From assembly GCA_021904315.1 (NCBI GenBank), contig CM038917.1:8168041-8232040 (forward strand): a stretch of 64,000 nt of DNA. Direction: 5' to 3'. Each line of letters opens with the position of its first letter. Positions within the stretch are counted from its first letter, which is position 1. A program made the position numbers and the translations under genes. The notes below the pieces were generated by a model. The model searched no databases, was not told where the DNA came from, and saw nothing but the letters and a program-made list of their open reading frames with translations. Positions 14,480 to 26,960 of this stretch are shown here, one piece after another. This stretch comes from Sphagnum magellanicum. Taxonomy: Eukaryota; Streptophyta; Sphagnopsida; Sphagnales; Sphagnaceae.

Positions 14480-17390
14480 TGAATGATTTGTGAAGTCAAC
14501 AAGGTTTTTTATCACTTATTTGATTTTATTGCATTGTAGATTATTTTTCAAAGAACATGAGCCACTCAGAAGACCTCGATCAATAATTCCTTGACTATTG
14601 AATGGATCATTCATCTCTTGGTTGTTATTCACCTCTACTTTCCATAACACAATCGACAAAGTTCAATTATCAAGTCTACCTAAGAATTTAATAAATTAAA
14701 ATTTCAGATTAAATTAAAACTTTCAAAGAAAAAAATCTTGATCTTGAACATAAAGGAAACCATTTGAACATGGTGTAATTTGAAAAGAGAGCTCAACTAT
14801 TGTTACATTTTTTATAAAATGTTTGATGAACTAGTGAAAGCCAAAATTTAAATAACTTAATCATGCAAGTACATAAGTAGAAGCTTGGTTAAAGTGCATA
14901 AGTAATTAAATAACAATTTATGTAGGTGGGGGATGTATGTTTCCTTGGTGATGGAATGATATCTTAAAAAACTCATAGTATAAAACATCAACTAATGTTA
15001 CCCAACTGGTAAACCTTGCTATTTTTTTGCACTGATAGTGGCAACTTTGACCTTCATAGTATAATAACTATGGTAATTTATGTATACCCAATGTTCTTCC
15101 TAGTACCATGGTAGACTATAATGAAATATAAACTAAAATTCATGCCATGCTATGACTTGAAATATATTATGTATTGTAGTAAAACAAACTTTCCTCCATT
15201 GTGAACATGAAAATGAAGTTCCTATATGTGTGGTAATTTGAAGAATCAATAAGTATTCTTGTAATGATTCCCCTAAACAAGAGTGGAACCCAAGAGATTT
15301 TATAACTTATTTTGAAAAAACCATAGGATATAACTAAGCTTGGAGTCCCCCTTGTTGATGTGTGGCAAGCTCGAATTTTTTGTGTTAACCCCATTATTGT
15401 AAATGGTGTCCCTCCAATTTTACCCAATATTTTAATTGACTCATGAAGCTTTTCAACATTTGCAATAAACTTTTGAAAGAGTTTTTAAATACTCATAAAT
15501 CTTATGTATGAAGTTGTAAGCAATTAGTTCAAGTTTTGTCATTGTAAGTTGTGGTTGTTTATACTCGATTGCAATAATTGTCTTATTAGAATGTGCAATA
15601 ACAACACAACAATTTGAATATGTTGATTACAATAAAACTTTACAAAGTAAATATAAATACCACACAATGACATAATTCAAGTAGTACAATTTATTAGTAA
15701 AATATTTAGGGCCCATGTAGAGATTTATATTTACCTTCCATATTTTTTGGCTTACTTCCAACCAAACATTTCCACTAGACTAGACTCCTTTCACTACCCA
15801 TCATGTCACTTAACCATAAAACCTAAGCAACATTCTTTAATGTTTTATCTTTCATGATCCCTTTATGGCAAATGATTGTTATAATTTGATCACCATCCAT
15901 TAAAAATGTGGAACCACACAATTTAAAACTCTTATTGAACTTTTGTTCCTAATCGAAATTGCTTCACTTTTTCAAAGTCTAACACATTATTAGGTTGCAC
16001 AATTATTTTAGCATTATTCGAAACACCAAACCCAAGCTATCTTTATTGATGAATCACTTCATCACTTCATTAGTGTAATGAGACAACTACCAGTATTTCA
16101 TCTATAAACAACACACACCAATGAACAAAAGATTTAAATCTTTGATTTAAAATCGTTAGTCTACCATCATAAACCAAAAAATGCAAGATGATCATGTCTT
16201 TCTTTCTCTTCCATTTTCTCAACAAACACATGTGCACAAATCCCTCTCATGTGTGTGTGTGTGTGTGTGTGTATGCTTTGAGGATCTTATGATAATAATT
16301 CTTATTACTACACCAACATCGCTAATTTGGTCTTGCACTCTTGTAAATTTTTTCAATAGTACATAGTACATGTTGAACTACATCGTTTTCTTTCAAATGA
16401 TGCACATACTAAAATACCAAGAATAAAAAGCAAATGATGCATATTCTGGACTATTTTGTGGTTGCAAAATGTGGCAGGTGTTTGGTCAAAGTGCATATCC
16501 AATTGTGGGGATTCTTCATTATGGCCACCTCTTGTAGCTATTATCATTATTTTGACATCCAGTTGGTGGGTTTTGATGTTTCCCAATGATGGAAGGAATG
16601 ACTTGTTGTTGTGCCATAATAGAACTCACATGTGTTCTAGACTCTAGTAGAGTTGTAATATACATAACCAATAGTAGGGGGCATCTTGATGATGTGTCGC
16701 TTCCTAATTGGACACCCACACAACAATTATATGACCTATCCTATTGAGCTCATGGATGTGAATCACTTCTCATCCACATACAAAAGATCAAATATTTGAT
16801 TCATGGATTTTTTATTTATTTATGTAATTATGTTTTAAATCATCCATTTTAGATAAAACTCAAAAGGGGATCGAACCCTAGGCAAATCCTTTGCCCAATG
16901 CAACTTGAGGCTTATTTACAAACAAAATGAATTGTGATAGATCTTTTCTAAGATTATGTATACAAAAAATCAATGTAACAAAAAATGTTTATAGTCTCAA
17001 TGTGTATGTTTTTTATGTTTTTAATGAGACAAAATATAGATTTATACAAAAGAATTAACCTAAAAAAATTTCTAGCAAACTTTGAACTAAACAAATTGTA
17101 ACTTCCAATTTCATATATTTCCTAGGCCTTTCTGAAGCTATTTCTTTGATCAATAATAGAAGAATTTGGGTATGAGAAATTGAACACTTGAATCTATCTA
17201 TATCACCAGTAAATTAATTATTGGAAGAAGCTTGAACTTCCAGTTGAACATGATAACCATCATTAGATCCATTGACCAAGTGTGGCTATGGAAAACCACC
17301 AAAAAGATCATGATCCCTAAATCTAGAATAGTTAGGAGAAAGAAAAAAACCCTTACCACCCTCAATATTCACAACCAAACCAATCACATT
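14480..17390. other. AT-rich intergenic DNA, no supported gene
   Basis: No gene or element could be supported. It contains the (GT)n run at 16249–16272. An isolated pol III B-box-like motif on the minus strand near 16880 is discussed among the rejected items. Confidence 0.5.
16249..16272. repeat. (GT)n microsatellite
   Basis: A pure GT dinucleotide run of about twelve units. Confidence 0.95.
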
Positions 17391-17984
17391 TGTTGATCCT
17401 AAGGAATTTTCACAAAGAACACCAAGAGGAGTAATTGGTGCTTGACATTTCACTTAAAATGATGGTTCAAATTCAAAATGTTTTGACACAGTAGCCCTAA
17501 ACCTTTCAAGTTCTTCCATTAGTTGTTTGTTCTTCAACCTTTCACATTCTACTTCTATCCTCAATCTTGTAACCTCTTCTTCTCATTTCCTTTTAGCATT
17601 GAGCCTTTTAGCATGAGCAATAAACCGTTCCACTTCCAATTCGAAAAGTAAATCATCTTCAACATCACTTGTTCCATTGGTAGCAAGTTGAACCAAAGAA
17701 GTATGAGAGGAGTAGAAATACAAAAGACAATTGGCAGGCACTTGAACAATTGGGTGTACATTAGCGATTGTGTGAGAATATGGACCTCAATTAGCTTGTA
17801 CTTGAAACTTTGGAAGACAATTTACATGTGCATGAATAGATGGAAGTCAACTAACAACTTCTTGAAATTGTAATCGATTTGTTTATTTAGATGGAAACAT
17901 ATTCATTTGTAAGGGGTCAAATGGTTTCAACTAGTAGCCACTTGGAAAAATGTTGGATATATGTTAGATGTTGGAGGTTTGGAA

Positions 17985-18590
17985 ACCTTGCATAACATCG
18001 TAGGTTGTGGCAAAATCAAACTACCATGTCCACCAAATGCACCTACACAATGACAAAGTTAGAAATGTTTTCAATGGAATGACACATCACATATTATGGA
18101 AGACCATATGTATTTCCAAGATGTTGTACTACAAAGTGCAAAGGTCCAATTTGATAATAATAACCTTGAATTGATTATGAATTTCAACACTCACCAATAT
18201 CAAAGGCGTATGCATGGCCATCAAGTTTCTACATTGGTGTTCTTATTGCAATGACAAATGGTCTCGAGAGGAATATCCACTTGGACAGATGTTTGAAGTA
18301 ATTCAAAAACCTTATGTGTTATAAGTTGTGGCAAAATTGAACTACCATATCCATCAAGTGCACCTACATTGTGGTGAAATGGGAAATGTTTTCAATGGAA
18401 TGACACATCACAGATTATGGAAAAGCATTTGTATTTTCAAAATTTTGCAATGTGTAGTGTGTTTAGGTCCAATTTGATAACAATAACCTTGAATAGATTG
18501 TGAATTTCAACACTCACCAATATTAAAAGCATTTGTGTAACCATCAATGTGTGCATTGGTGCTTTTGGCACAATGATAGGTTCTCCATTT
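17985..18590. repeat. About 300-bp direct duplication inside the Crypton-like element
   Basis: Two successive units (about 17985–18262 and 18310–18586) share GGTTGTGGCAAAAT, TTTTCAATGGAATGACACAT, GGTCCAATTTGATAA and AATTTCAACACTCACCAATAT in the same order. The copies have diverged by scattered substitutions, so the duplication is old and was probably part of the ancestral coding region. Confidence 0.85.
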
Positions 18591-20109
18591 CACTCAATCC
18601 ATGAGCTATTTCCTTGTTGCACTTGGTACAACATTAGTGGTTCCTATGCACTTAATCTTTACTTCAATGCATTTGATGCAAGGTCCATAGTTTGATGCAA
18701 TGGTACATTCAACTCAACCACAAGAAGAGTAGAAGGATTGACAATTGGAATAGATGTGTTGCCAATGATAGGTGGCCAATCAAAATCTATCAAAACAACA
18801 TGTTTGACTAATGATGTGCATGGTATAATACTCATCATAGAAAAAAATGTAGCCAATTCATGGATCTTCTTCTTGTGAAATAACTATAATTGTTCATTGT
18901 AATGATGATCAAAGTCTAGAAACTCTTCAATCTCTTCATCGTAAGGACATCGAGACAAAACTTGTGTAGCAAAATGCTTTAAAAAGATACTCTCGTCATA
19001 TTTGCCAAGTGTTTCAAGTTCTTGTGTCCTATTGTCAATGCCATTATTTTAGGTGACATTTGAGCAATAACCATTTTTGTAATGGAGGTAACATGTCCAG
19101 ACTTGTTTGTGACATCCTTGTCAATTCCAATAGATTGAGCCATTTGCTTCATCCAATGTCACATGTTTCTTTCACCAACATTGATCCCTTTCTTAAACCA
19201 AAAAACATTTCTTGAATTGTGTTTAATGGTAGGAAATAGGTTTCCCTCTTAAGCAATAGGCGATATGTGTGAAACCAATAAATATTGAAAATGGTCAAAG
19301 CAAATCAAAGTCCTAAGAATACATTGTTGGATGCATTTGCTCCACTTGAAAACACTTGGTGCTAACTTTGTAATTCTTGGAAGTAGATTCATCATACATC
19401 AAGAATTTCTTCTTTTTGTTGTCAATACTAGCAATGAACTTATTCAAATGAGTTCCCCAAAGCTCACTATTCCCTTTGATGAGAAAAACAACAAAATAGT
19501 AAAATGCAAAGTGTTTTTTATAAAGAGAATTCAATCCACTCCCTATGGATGAATGGTGTGGTTTTCATAATGATAGAGAATGTTTCTCTTTTCCTCATAT
19601 GTAATCCCTTCCAATTTTCTATGTGTCACATTTATTCCAAAATCACGATTTAGGTTCAAGGCCACATTGATGACTCTATTCACTTTGATGAATAAATGAT
19701 TCAATCATTTTGAATCAAGCTTTAGTCACACTTGTGGAACAAATTTGATTTTCTTGAGCTCTAACTAAGATTCTATTCACTAACATGTACAATTTCTTCA
19801 ATGAAGGGGTAGGATATCTCGATCCATCTTGTTTACACACCATCACAAAAAATCTACACAACATCTTGAACAATGACACTAATGACAATTCTTCAATCTT
19901 CTTGCTACAATCCAATTTCATCATCTGCCTCCATGCACCAAATTTGTTCCAACACCATGTCTCACTCTTCTCACTCGGAGTTGTAGATTGTTGAACCATT
20001 TGATTCCACTCTACTTCATCAAATGTTTTGAAATCCAAGCATGCAAGTTACAACATCAGGTGAGGGTCTTGATTCCATAGGAACCATAGTTGTAAGACCT
20101 TCATAAAGA

Positions 20110-20270
20110 GGACATTTGTAAGCAATGTCTGTTGCAACCTCACAACAAGAATGAGGAGTATCCTTCTCAATGTATGTTGTGACCTCACTACAAAAAATAG
20201 GAGTATTGCTCTCAGTGTTTGTTGCAACCTCATTGCAAGAAATAAAAGTATCATTCTTTGCTATATGACG
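20110..20270 (-). repeat. 51-bp tandem repeat encoding a 17-residue peptide unit
   Basis: Three units can be aligned on the minus strand as FISCNEVATNTESNTP, IFCSEVTTYIEKDTPH and SCCEVATDIAYKCPLY, with C.EV.T as the constant core. They lie just upstream of the recombinase-like N-terminal domain and in frame with a short leader, so they may be a repeat domain at the start of that element's protein. Confidence 0.75.
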
Positions 20271-22900
20271 AGTTAAATGCAATTGTGATTTCTACATCTT
20301 GAGAAGTGGTAGATGCATCAACAAAAGTCGAATCCACATAATGACGAATAGGATGACAAAGATTGTTATTAAAGCAGCCACACCCACAAACTTTCCACAT
20401 TGTGTTCCCTCACGGCTATAATCACTGAGCACAGGTTCTCTTCTTCTGTGCTCCCTGAGAGTGCCAGTAGTTGCTGCTCTCCTGACATTCATCATTCTAC
20501 TCTATTTTCATGCACACCTGATACACACCTCTTCTTGCTGCATCACTGTGATCTTCACAGGTCTCGCGTTTGGCAGTAGCTCATCTATAGCCAGGTCCTA
20601 GCCATAGTTGCAACAAATTATGATTGGACTGTGTAATCACTAGTCTTCTAATTTCTTTCTCACTAGTTAGCCACAGATTATTTCATGCACTACCTGTAGC
20701 TCATGAATATTATAGTAGTAGGAATTGGAGTCCCAATCAGGAGGAGCCCTGGGGTGCTTAGCAATCATCACATATCCATAGCCTTAAGATCCGGGTGATT
20801 TTTGACTTGCTTTTGGTCAGAGATGGTAATAGGTGTGTTGACAAAACCCATGTCCAATTTAGTGATTTCATGCTCCAGTCCCTCCTTTGTACAATCTAGA
20901 TTTTACTAGTAGCAATGGTTGATCAATAAAAGAAAGCAATATTGACTTTGACACTCGGCATTCTTATGAAGAGCTGTGGTCCCAAACCAGTCTCAAAGCA
21001 AATTCATGTATTGAACATTTGACAGACATAGCCAAATACAAAGTTTCATGGAGCATTACAGGATGCCACCCATTGACAAGTCATTCTGGCAATAGGTCAA
21101 GCTAATGGAAATCACATTGTGTAGGTTATCCTCCCAAAAACTTGGAAAGTGTGGCAAGCTCTCAGTTGCATAATAGTATGCTGAGCTCATCTGTACACTT
21201 TGACAAAAAAGACCCCTGGATACAAACTCTAGTTGATGTAGTCCACCTGAATTCAATGTCCTCACTCTGATGAGATGGCGAGTATAGAAAGATGAGATTA
21301 AACAGCTGGCCTCCGTCCACCACCCCTCCTGCGGCCTCCCTGTTGAGCTGGAGCTACTTGCTGCACATTATTGCGGATACTTGCAAAGAGAGAATCCAAT
21401 GTCTTTGGTCTCTGGTTCTGCACCTGATTCTGTCAACAAAGTCATGGTCAGTTCTCCAGAAACACTGCACAACACAAATGAGCTCAATCCCTTTGTCCTT
21501 CTCACTCATTGGTGGAACTCTTCAAGCTAGCTGAATAAGGATGCCCACATTCATAGTTTGAAAGCCATGTATAGGAAAATACTTCTGTCAATCCTTAAAG
21601 CTGACAGAGTTAATGGATGCCATTGTAAGGTATACAAACAATGCTCAAATGCAGAGTTTGAACTGTACGTGACAGGCTCAATGCAAACAAAATGTACCAG
21701 ATTGGAGTTCTGAGTTACTGTTGTAACTTGCTGCTTAGGACCAGTCATTGTCTTCCTCCTAAGTGTGCCTGCAGGCCTGCCTGCTCCATTTCTGCACATT
21801 ACTAAGACTTGTTATGCAATCTGCCCAAAGATCATGCTTCAAATGCAACTCTCCAAGGAACCAGACTTTGTGATAACAGAGTAGAAAATTTTCCTGCAGA
21901 CCACATTTTCACCTCAACAAGCTTTCTACTTCCAAAGTAGGTTCACATAGAAGAATACAAGGTACAGGAAGAACAAAGGTCCCTGCTGTTCAAGGCTTAG
22001 AAAGAGATCCAACATCTAGCAGCTGAAGATCCACTGGTAGGTGAATAAACCAGCAAGGTACTAACTGGTTTGCCCAGAGGCTCAATCCTCAGGCAACCAG
22101 AAAGGCACCATCATCTTTGAGGCCATCCATTGGGTCTGGTAGTAATCAAGCTCATGCAATCCTCAACCAAGAGATACCATTGCAACTTCCAGTCCATGCA
22201 AAACAGGTGTGCAACCTTCAATGCATTATGGACACCAGTGGAGGCATGACAGATGTAGATTTCAATCAACAAATAACTTTCTTCCAGGGCCCACTATCAC
22301 CAATATACTTGTGTCCATGGTCAGGAGAGAAAGGGCCCTCAGTCATATGCAACCTTCCAGATGTGAACTTACAGTTCTTGTGATAGAAGACCTCAGCAGA
22401 ACCTCTAAAAACAATCTCCACCTTCATGAACATAGGCTGAAGTAGCTTCAAGCCATAAATTTCACTGATGAGAAGTATCTTTGATAGATCAGGGGGGAAA
22501 CATAACAGGTTGCATGCACAACATGCAACACCACTACACAGGCAATTTGGTAGCTGCTCAGCGAGGATTCAATCAAAGGAACTTTGATCATGCCAGCCAC
22601 TCACTTGCTAGAGTTGTTGACAACCAAAATCTTCATGTTTCCAGCACCAGCAGCAAACGTGTTTGCAAGTTTCTGACTGTTGTGCCTCCGTGAAGGAGCA
22701 TTCCCCCATCCAGATTCACTGGCAACCCACAATATGTGAGTAGAATAGACTGCTCAACAGCTAGCATTCGATACACCATGAGTTTGGGAGCACTTATTTT
22801 CTTACTCTTATGTGCTTTACAGTTGTGTGGAGGGAAGGAGAAGTGGCAAGTAAACTAAAGTGTATGTACTTGAATGGAGGATTCAACACATCATGGTAGT

Positions 22901-25514: not shown

Positions 25515-26960
25515 TTACCAATAATCCCTGCAAGAACAAAGACCATCCTTGAAGTGATGGAAGCAATTGGCATCCCTAACTATCTTTGCAATGAACTTGG
25601 TGGAAGTGTGGCAGTCCCCACATACCCACAGATTCTTGAGAAGGTGGGGTGTTGTTCCAGGAGGTGTGCAGATGAGACCAAATGCAATAGTCAGTTTCTC
25701 ACTATGGTGATGTAAATGAAACACCTTTTCTTCATCCTCTACATCATGCAAAGCAAATTTTGTATCTGGCACATACCCAGCAGCTTTCATCTGGCTGAAC
25801 AACCTTTTTAGCTCTGCATGGATTTCAATCATTTGAGGATGGTCTTGATCATCTACTACAAATGTATGCACTTCATTATTTACTTCAATCCATGTGCAAC
25901 CCAACTTTTTCTTGACATTCCTTTTTCCTTTCTCTGTTGCTGAACCTTTGCACTGAGTTCCCACTTGCCACCAGCAGCATAGATGTTTGATAGTAGCACA
26001 TAGCCTGTGGCATTTCTGGGGTCTACTTCAAGAACTCACTTTACAATATGTTCTACCATCTCTACATCGCCATGAATTCTGCAAGCACCAACTAAGAGTG
26101 GCCAAGAAGATCAACCATGCAAGCATAGTGATTCCCTGTTGGGAGGATACTGTAAACTGTACCCATGGAATTAAAGTGGTGCAGGCCTTCAAACAGCAGG
26201 CCTACATGACTACAAGCTGACAGAAGACAAACAAACATGACACTATTTATCTCCACACCTGCTTGACACATCCATTTGAAATGTGCAAGAGCTTCCTTAC
26301 CATAGCCATGCATGGCAAAGCCCTTTAGCATGGCTCTCCAAGAGACGACATTTTGTGTGGGCATCTTGTCGAACACTCTCCATGCCTCCATGTTTCCACA
26401 TTTAATGTAAATGTGAATGAGGCTATTGCCCACAAAGAGATCTGAATCAGAACCACTTTCAATTATACATTCATGAGCATGTCCACCCTCTTCAAGTGCC
26501 ACTACACTGGCAAATGCATTCAGGACCCCCCACAAAAGTGACTGCATCTGGCTTGACACCTTCTAGTTGCATTCAGTGAAATAGTTCCTATGCCTTCTGC
26601 CCTTGCGCAGATTTCACATATCCCAGAATCATGGCAGTCCAAGAGACAACATAATGTGTGGCCATCCTGTGGAACACTCTAGAAGCATTTTCCGTTCTCC
26701 TACTCTTGGCATACATGTCAACAAGGCTATTACCCACAAAGACATCTGACTCAATAACCTGTTCATGAGTGTGCCTGCCCTTATCAAATGCTGCTCAACT
26801 GGCACACGAATTCAGGACCTCCACAAAAGTGACAGGGTTTGGCTCCATTCCTTCATGTTACATTTGTCGAAATAGTTCCAATGCCTTGTGCCCTTGCCCA
26901 CATTTTGCATATCCTAGAATCACAGAAGACACATGTTTCTTTGTGCAGAACACGTCGTAA
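25515..26960 (-). pseudogene. PPR protein of the PLS–DYW class, truncated and frameshifted
   Basis: The C-terminal part (25515–25964) is an E/E+ plus DYW domain. It has GCTWIEVNNEVHTFVV, AAGYVPDTKFALHDVE, the zinc/deaminase motif HSEKL…CGDCH, and an exact C-terminal CRDYW before the stop. Upstream (26092–26559) are PPR units such as VFDKMPTQNVVSWRAMLKGF and GNHYACMVDLLG. Between about 26560 and 26960 further units (FVGNSLVDMYAK, VVSWTAMILGYVK) are split by stops and frame changes. A TGA also interrupts the segment at about 26035. Compared with family members, about six residues are missing between FIAKIV and RDAN in the DYW domain. Family members are organellar RNA-editing factors; this copy cannot make one. 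No start or transit peptide was found past 26960. Confidence 0.9.

Follow-up and report, generated by a model that had tools for sequence, protein, structure and literature searches.

Does a moss genome hold the remains of a DNA transposon of the Crypton type? The question is raised by a stretch of 64,000 nucleotides from Sphagnum magellanicum (GCA_021904315.1, CM038917.1, 8,168,041–8,232,040 of the forward strand; contig label C11), here called the window, in which a first-pass annotation had placed a remnant of a Crypton- or DUF3504-like tyrosine recombinase at 17400..20280. We consider it likely that the window holds a dead, 5′-truncated copy of a Crypton-like DNA transposon, and that the family to which it belongs also left two possible domesticated genes, one of them probably fused to a BTB domain. 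The genome searched comprises 438,994,042 bases in 31 contigs; contigs are labelled C1, C5, C6 and so on, and loci L009 and so on.

The locus is real and wider than first drawn: a decayed gene extends on the minus strand over 16,662 to about 20,355. Its homologue in this genome is L009 on C6, a gene of five exons that is apparently intact, and frameshift-tolerant alignment of the window region with residues 252–605 of the 639-residue L009 protein gives a score of 461 across 4 stops and 5 frame breaks. The controls score far lower, at no more than 62 for 30 shuffled proteins, no more than 65 for 44 other 2-kb pieces of the window and 49 for the opposite strand. With the 110-residue open reading frame (ORF) at 19715–20047 as query, the genome returns 11 matches including the query itself, of which the one on C17 has an E value of 9e-33. 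Chance resemblance of the motifs would account for the lack of a significant Pfam match to the window copy; it is refuted by the control scores, and with the C17 match as well its probability is close to nil. The parts of the element, and the evidence for them, are as follows.

16662..20355, minus strand: decayed element copy, whose 5′ to 3′ direction runs towards lower coordinates and whose 5′ end, on the right, is apparently missing; the block in common with the C17 copy, L013
20048..20291, minus strand: extension at the N terminus that contains a 45-bp tandem repeat; above 20150 it can be aligned with the C17 copy
19715..20047, minus strand: N-terminal, QRICH1-like part of the protein, holding CKQDGSRYPTPSLKKLYML; 14.3 bits to PF25561 QRICH1, below the cut-off
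19313..19564, minus strand: start of the catalytic domain, with Lys at the first catalytic Arg position (FLIKG, about 19475–19477) and the SKN Lys at about 19376–19378
19012..19278, minus strand: box II N-K-S-G-H (family N-[K/H]-x-x-R) and GH motif (His at about 19024–19026), at a distance of 23 residues
18885..19011, minus strand: beyond a frame break, the candidate catalytic Tyr (LGKYDES, about 18998–19000) and the C-terminal PYDEEIEEF
17460..17786, minus strand: coiled-coil-like open stretch downstream, also in the C17 copy; possibly part of the same protein
16662..16764, no strand assigned: terminal ∼100 bp, forming the 3′ end of the element and shared, as their left end, by short repeats resembling miniature inverted-repeat transposable elements (MITEs), from genome DNA matches

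The motifs on which the annotation had relied are found on one strand and in the order given, CKQDGSRYPTPSLKKLYML in the ORF at 19715–20047 and FLIKGNSELWG and DESTSKNY in that at 19313–19564. A coiled-coil-like stretch does trail them on the 3′ side, by eye at about 17.46–17.67 kb, and may belong to the same protein. The tandem repeat counts about three copies, at 20123–20252, inside the N-terminal portion of the gene remnant. Elsewhere in the window, 25515–26562 on the minus strand carries fragments of a PPR-DYW gene of the RNA-editing type (DYW_deaminase, E 3e-33, and PPR repeats), as would suit a land plant.

The block common to the window and L013 (2404–6202 in the latter) consists of two main blocks with 80% and 76% DNA identity. 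Divergence is fairly even over the block, and no codon-position bias is clear (no formal test); this suggests neutral decay of the two copies after they separated from a common parent.

The homology to DUF3504 and Cryptons that had been proposed is supported at the level of the family. Read through under the guidance of a second intact-looking gene, L010 on C16, the C5 copy L064 reaches 31.6 bits to Pfam DUF3504 (PF12012; E 2e-7), above the gathering threshold of 29.7 bits, and L010 itself gives weak matches to DUF3504 and to QRICH1, which is the N-terminal domain of animal DUF3504 relatives. A stop-tolerant translation was the check proposed for the window copy, which itself yields the QRICH1 score listed above and, as a joined read, no match. 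In an alignment of 12 rows (A6), DUF3504 is matched by two rows and QRICH1 by two (E ≤ 1), and in an alignment of eight rows (A1) each is matched by one row (E ≤ 10). Because matches are so few among equally guided reads of other copies, guided reading alone is not the source of the L064 match.

The arrangement of catalytic residues points the same way. The family pattern, [K/H]xxR-23-H-9-Y, persists in part of the copies, and spacings of 23 and 9 residues are usual in tyrosine recombinases, as in XerD. In the 12 copies where box II was located, the first catalytic place is K in nine, H in two and M in one; the second Arg is present in four, and seven of the remaining eight codons differ from an Arg codon by one step. 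His is found at +23 from box II in 8 of the 12, and Tyr at +32, nine past the His, in three (L064, L066 and L012), to which the window adds its LGKYDES beyond the frame break. These Tyr-bearing copies stem from both sides of the family split described below. The Lys of the SKN motif stands in every row of A1 and in nearly every row of A6. For the R…H..R…Y tetrad that was to be sought in the family, then, R, [K or H]xxR, H and Y are found at regular spacing, with every residue lost in some copies. The second of two AlphaFold models places helices first and then three strands around the SKN Lys, an arrangement that would be compatible with a tyrosine-recombinase catalytic domain. Profile searches were also made: A1 gave no PDB match and nothing better than E 0.07 in PHROGs, and A6 gave four PDB rows of a single molecule, Son of sevenless 2, with a best E of 0.0092; these we take as spurious.

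The family is large. The recombinase region of L010 finds 84 matches in the genome, equal to 76 loci, and L064 finds at least 123 matches, equal to 105 loci, with 119 of 346 candidates scored. The union of these two queries and that of the window ORF (11, 84 and 123 matches) amounts to at least 125 loci on 19 contigs, both intact genes and the window included, a lower bound reached after merging matches ≤3 kb apart. The dispersed copies that were aligned are decayed. A tree of 13 rows separates the window, L013, L012, L017 and L009 from L010 and seven copies, with a support of 100/100 for the split; it is unrooted, the midpoint root serving for drawing only, L010 is deviant in composition, and the branches of the tree are long. 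Given an unrooted tree and this one single split, it is possible that L009 and L010 each arose from its own set of copies. Two scans of viral contigs found no relatives.

Neither of the intact-looking genes has Tyr at its catalytic place. L009, spliced by eye on GT-AG borders, reads QxxR, H at +23 and Asp in place of Tyr. L010 shares its four intron positions by our own reading, and has KxxR followed by Ile and Pro at the His and Tyr positions. Spliced, L010 encodes 794 residues, with a QRICH1-like stretch (14.7–16.1 bits) followed by a DUF3504-like one (16.6–18.1 bits), both below the cut-off, and after these a BTB domain (E 7.5e-17) and then a weak BACK-like match (E 0.044).

C16:559963-564209: gene L010/L053 with DUF3504-like stretch and BTB, drawn from splice signals

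The splice signals indicate that the recombinase exons of L010 are probably fused to the BTB exons, while two adjacent genes are a possible alternative. Relatives of the BTB part occur at other places in the genome, and the recombinase part was not recognised in the 901 bases that hold the upstream part of one such relative on C5. We also considered whether the dispersed copies carry the BTB part along, and rejected this for the loci compared, where BTB matched only L010 and its continuation L053. We infer that L009 and L010 may be domesticated, perhaps for DNA binding.

How did the copies spread? Frame-consistent GT-AG introns stand at the positions of the intact genes in L063 (intron 1) and in L064 and L015 (intron 2); L018 has a GT..AG pair at position 1, by eye, and several further copies have insertions at intron positions without clean splice sites. 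Introns kept in three dispersed copies argue for spread as DNA, without an RNA step, for those copies. They speak against the remnant of a tyrosine-recombinase retrotransposon of the DIRS, Ngaro or PAT type, which would also encode a reverse transcriptase, as does the length of the element, 2.55 kb, which leaves little room for such an enzyme. Pfam searches (E ≤ 0.5) of stop-tolerant frames on the recombinase strand of the window at 13.6–23.5 kb, of L063 and of L068 found no retrotransposon or DDE transposase domains, and neither reverse transcriptase nor RNase H appeared at these three loci, on one strand each; such scans are weak evidence since they are insensitive to decayed genes and missed the recombinase as well. 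DIRS-type elements are known in Viridiplantae, according to the accessible text of PMC4157794, and we regard this origin as very improbable all the same.

The clearest ends belong to L064 and its counterpart on C1, which are homologous over the 2.55 kb at 81% identity and stop sharply. Aligned and viewed by eye, these ends show no inverted repeat, long direct repeat or target duplication. Gathering copies, which had been proposed as the way to define ends and target sites, gave sharp ends in this one pair and did not establish a target duplication. In a 321-bp piece of the pair, mismatches number 13, 20 and 18 at codon positions 1, 2 and 3 (p 0.87). Beside the element in L064, positions 1–707 of the reverse strand are a repeat of ∼707 bp with 39 further match rows at 71–91% identity, perhaps a long terminal repeat. 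A Helitron was considered since some ends begin with TC, and rejected; a CTRR end was not seen (by eye only).

The window subfamily has an end of another kind. Of 33 rows of DNA matches in the genome, 22 fall inside the first ∼100 bp at the left end, and for 20 of these no longer match adjoins; at eight loci the first 22–33 bp of the element's left end recur in inverted orientation. In the C17 copy, moreover, 280 bp past the shared block, 51 bp match the right-hand end of the short repeats at 80%. All three observations would fit a recombinase gene of the window subfamily that was captured as a passenger inside a terminal-inverted-repeat (MITE-like) element and mobilised in trans by a different transposase, with no role for the recombinase. 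The right-end link is a single match, however, and it is weakened by the search with L013 5700–6560, which matched only L013 itself and the window; no such right-end match was found in the window at 14–23 kb. An inverted-repeat search of 16500–20700 returned nine pairs, none linking the element's two ends. The L064 lineage ends without visible inverted repeats, and no consistent target duplication is seen in the copies viewed by eye. The short elements may instead be non-autonomous derivatives, as the accessible text of PMC3212892 describes for a Rhodnius Crypton. Taken with these points, passenger capture seems unlikely to us, if still worth keeping in view. Inverted repeats, which the first-pass annotation had named as a sign of another superfamily, thus touch one end of the window subfamily and are not visible in the L064/C1 pair. 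Many of the short repeats (L026–L048 and L054–L061) have a strongly palindromic right end (...CGGCTCGAGCAGGCCGGTTAC...GTAGTCCA), which also occurs on repeats with differing left parts.

Dispersed copies could also be ordinary pseudogenes, that is, segmental or processed duplicates of the two cellular genes and no mobile family. The aligned copies are indeed decayed, none of the four introns is present in the window and C17 copies, as expected of a processed copy, and codon-position bias is seen in neither copy pair. Against this stand the number of loci, at least 125, the Tyr, which copies on either side of the split have where it is expected and which neither intact gene has, the introns retained by other copies, and the sharp ends of the L064/C1 pair, so that we hold this explanation to be quite unlikely.

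Several observations weigh against a Crypton-like transposon, the reading that we prefer, and the two just named, missing introns and missing codon bias, are among them; with no codon bias in either pair, selection on a mobile protein is not detected. No consistent terminal direct repeat or target duplication was found in the copies viewed by eye, and the window subfamily shares one end with inverted-repeat elements, unlike Cryptons. The window copy matches no curated Pfam family above the cut-off, its joined read giving nothing, and the L009 protein likewise matches none. Ten of the 12 A6 reads lack a DUF3504 match at E ≤ 1, and so do all nine unjoined pieces of non-window copies, the three of L064 included, which means that the L064 match depends on the joined read; two of the nine have other weak matches. 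The box-II His is mostly replaced by Lys, and the first catalytic Arg is present in two of eight copies, with Lys in the window. The AlphaFold models have a mean pLDDT of 48.9 for the first and 58.2 for the second (pTM 0.35), and no tyrosine recombinase is among the 30 Foldseek rows or the VIA-align rows for the second. The PF12012 profile found no match in the genome, a search that is uninformative as 14 controls also gave none.

On the preferred reading of a Crypton-like transposon, the ancestral element would have carried the gene for a DUF3504/Crypton-type tyrosine recombinase, and most likely it spread in DNA form. By analogy with Cryptons, we infer that it was mobilised by its own recombinase, an enzyme that would act by cutting and rejoining DNA at short sites in the element ends, so that a circle may have been excised and then reinserted. 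In fungal and oomycete Cryptons there are terminal direct repeats of 4–6 bp, and none are found in animal Cryptons. The moss family resembles Cryptons in its DUF3504/recombinase homology, in a copy pair of ∼2.5 kb without visible terminal repeats, in copies with kept introns and in possible short non-autonomous derivatives. It differs in its host, in a box-II His that is mostly Lys, in the window-subfamily end held in common with inverted-repeat elements, and in that an intact moss copy was not seen. In the accessible text of Kojima and Jurka (2011, PMC3212892), the known hosts of Cryptons are given as fungi, oomycetes, a diatom and animals, and DUF3504 is derived from Crypton tyrosine recombinases; a figure legend there, in its text alone, places Chlamydomonas under plants. 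No report of a moss Crypton was found among the literature matches listed, Repbase and subscription papers lying outside the scope of the search, and a Crypton-like element is apparently new for a moss host.

The two intact genes invite comparison with the domesticated Cryptons of animals (QRICH1, ZMYM2/3/4 and WOC). L010 likewise has a QRICH1-like part followed by a DUF3504-like one, has lost its Tyr and contains introns, whereas the split separates L009 from L010, each beside decayed copies, and MYM zinc fingers are absent among their Pfam matches. In KCTD1 isoform b, DUF3504 is combined with BTB/POZ, and spliced L010 has its DUF3504-like stretch and BTB in the same order; in L010, unlike KCTD1, a weak BACK-like match follows the BTB, the DUF3504 match is below the cut-off, and the fusion is predicted from splice signals. 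Plant genes derived from a tyrosine-recombinase element have a parallel in the ALOG proteins, plant regulators that stem from a DIRS1-type DNA-binding domain, as given in the accessible text of PMC3537659. A bolder proposal, which we advance tentatively and hold to be on balance doubtful, is that land plants may have harboured a large superfamily of Cryptons, of which one moss has two branches. Each branch would have left a Tyr-less domesticated gene, one of these genes being fused to BTB and independently paralleling vertebrate KCTD1.

Should a land plant be confirmed to hold a large family of dead Crypton-like elements, this would widen the range of Cryptons and provide a fossil record for dating their loss. 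It would also give a plant two candidate domesticated recombinase genes, with which repeated domestication of recombinases would become testable.

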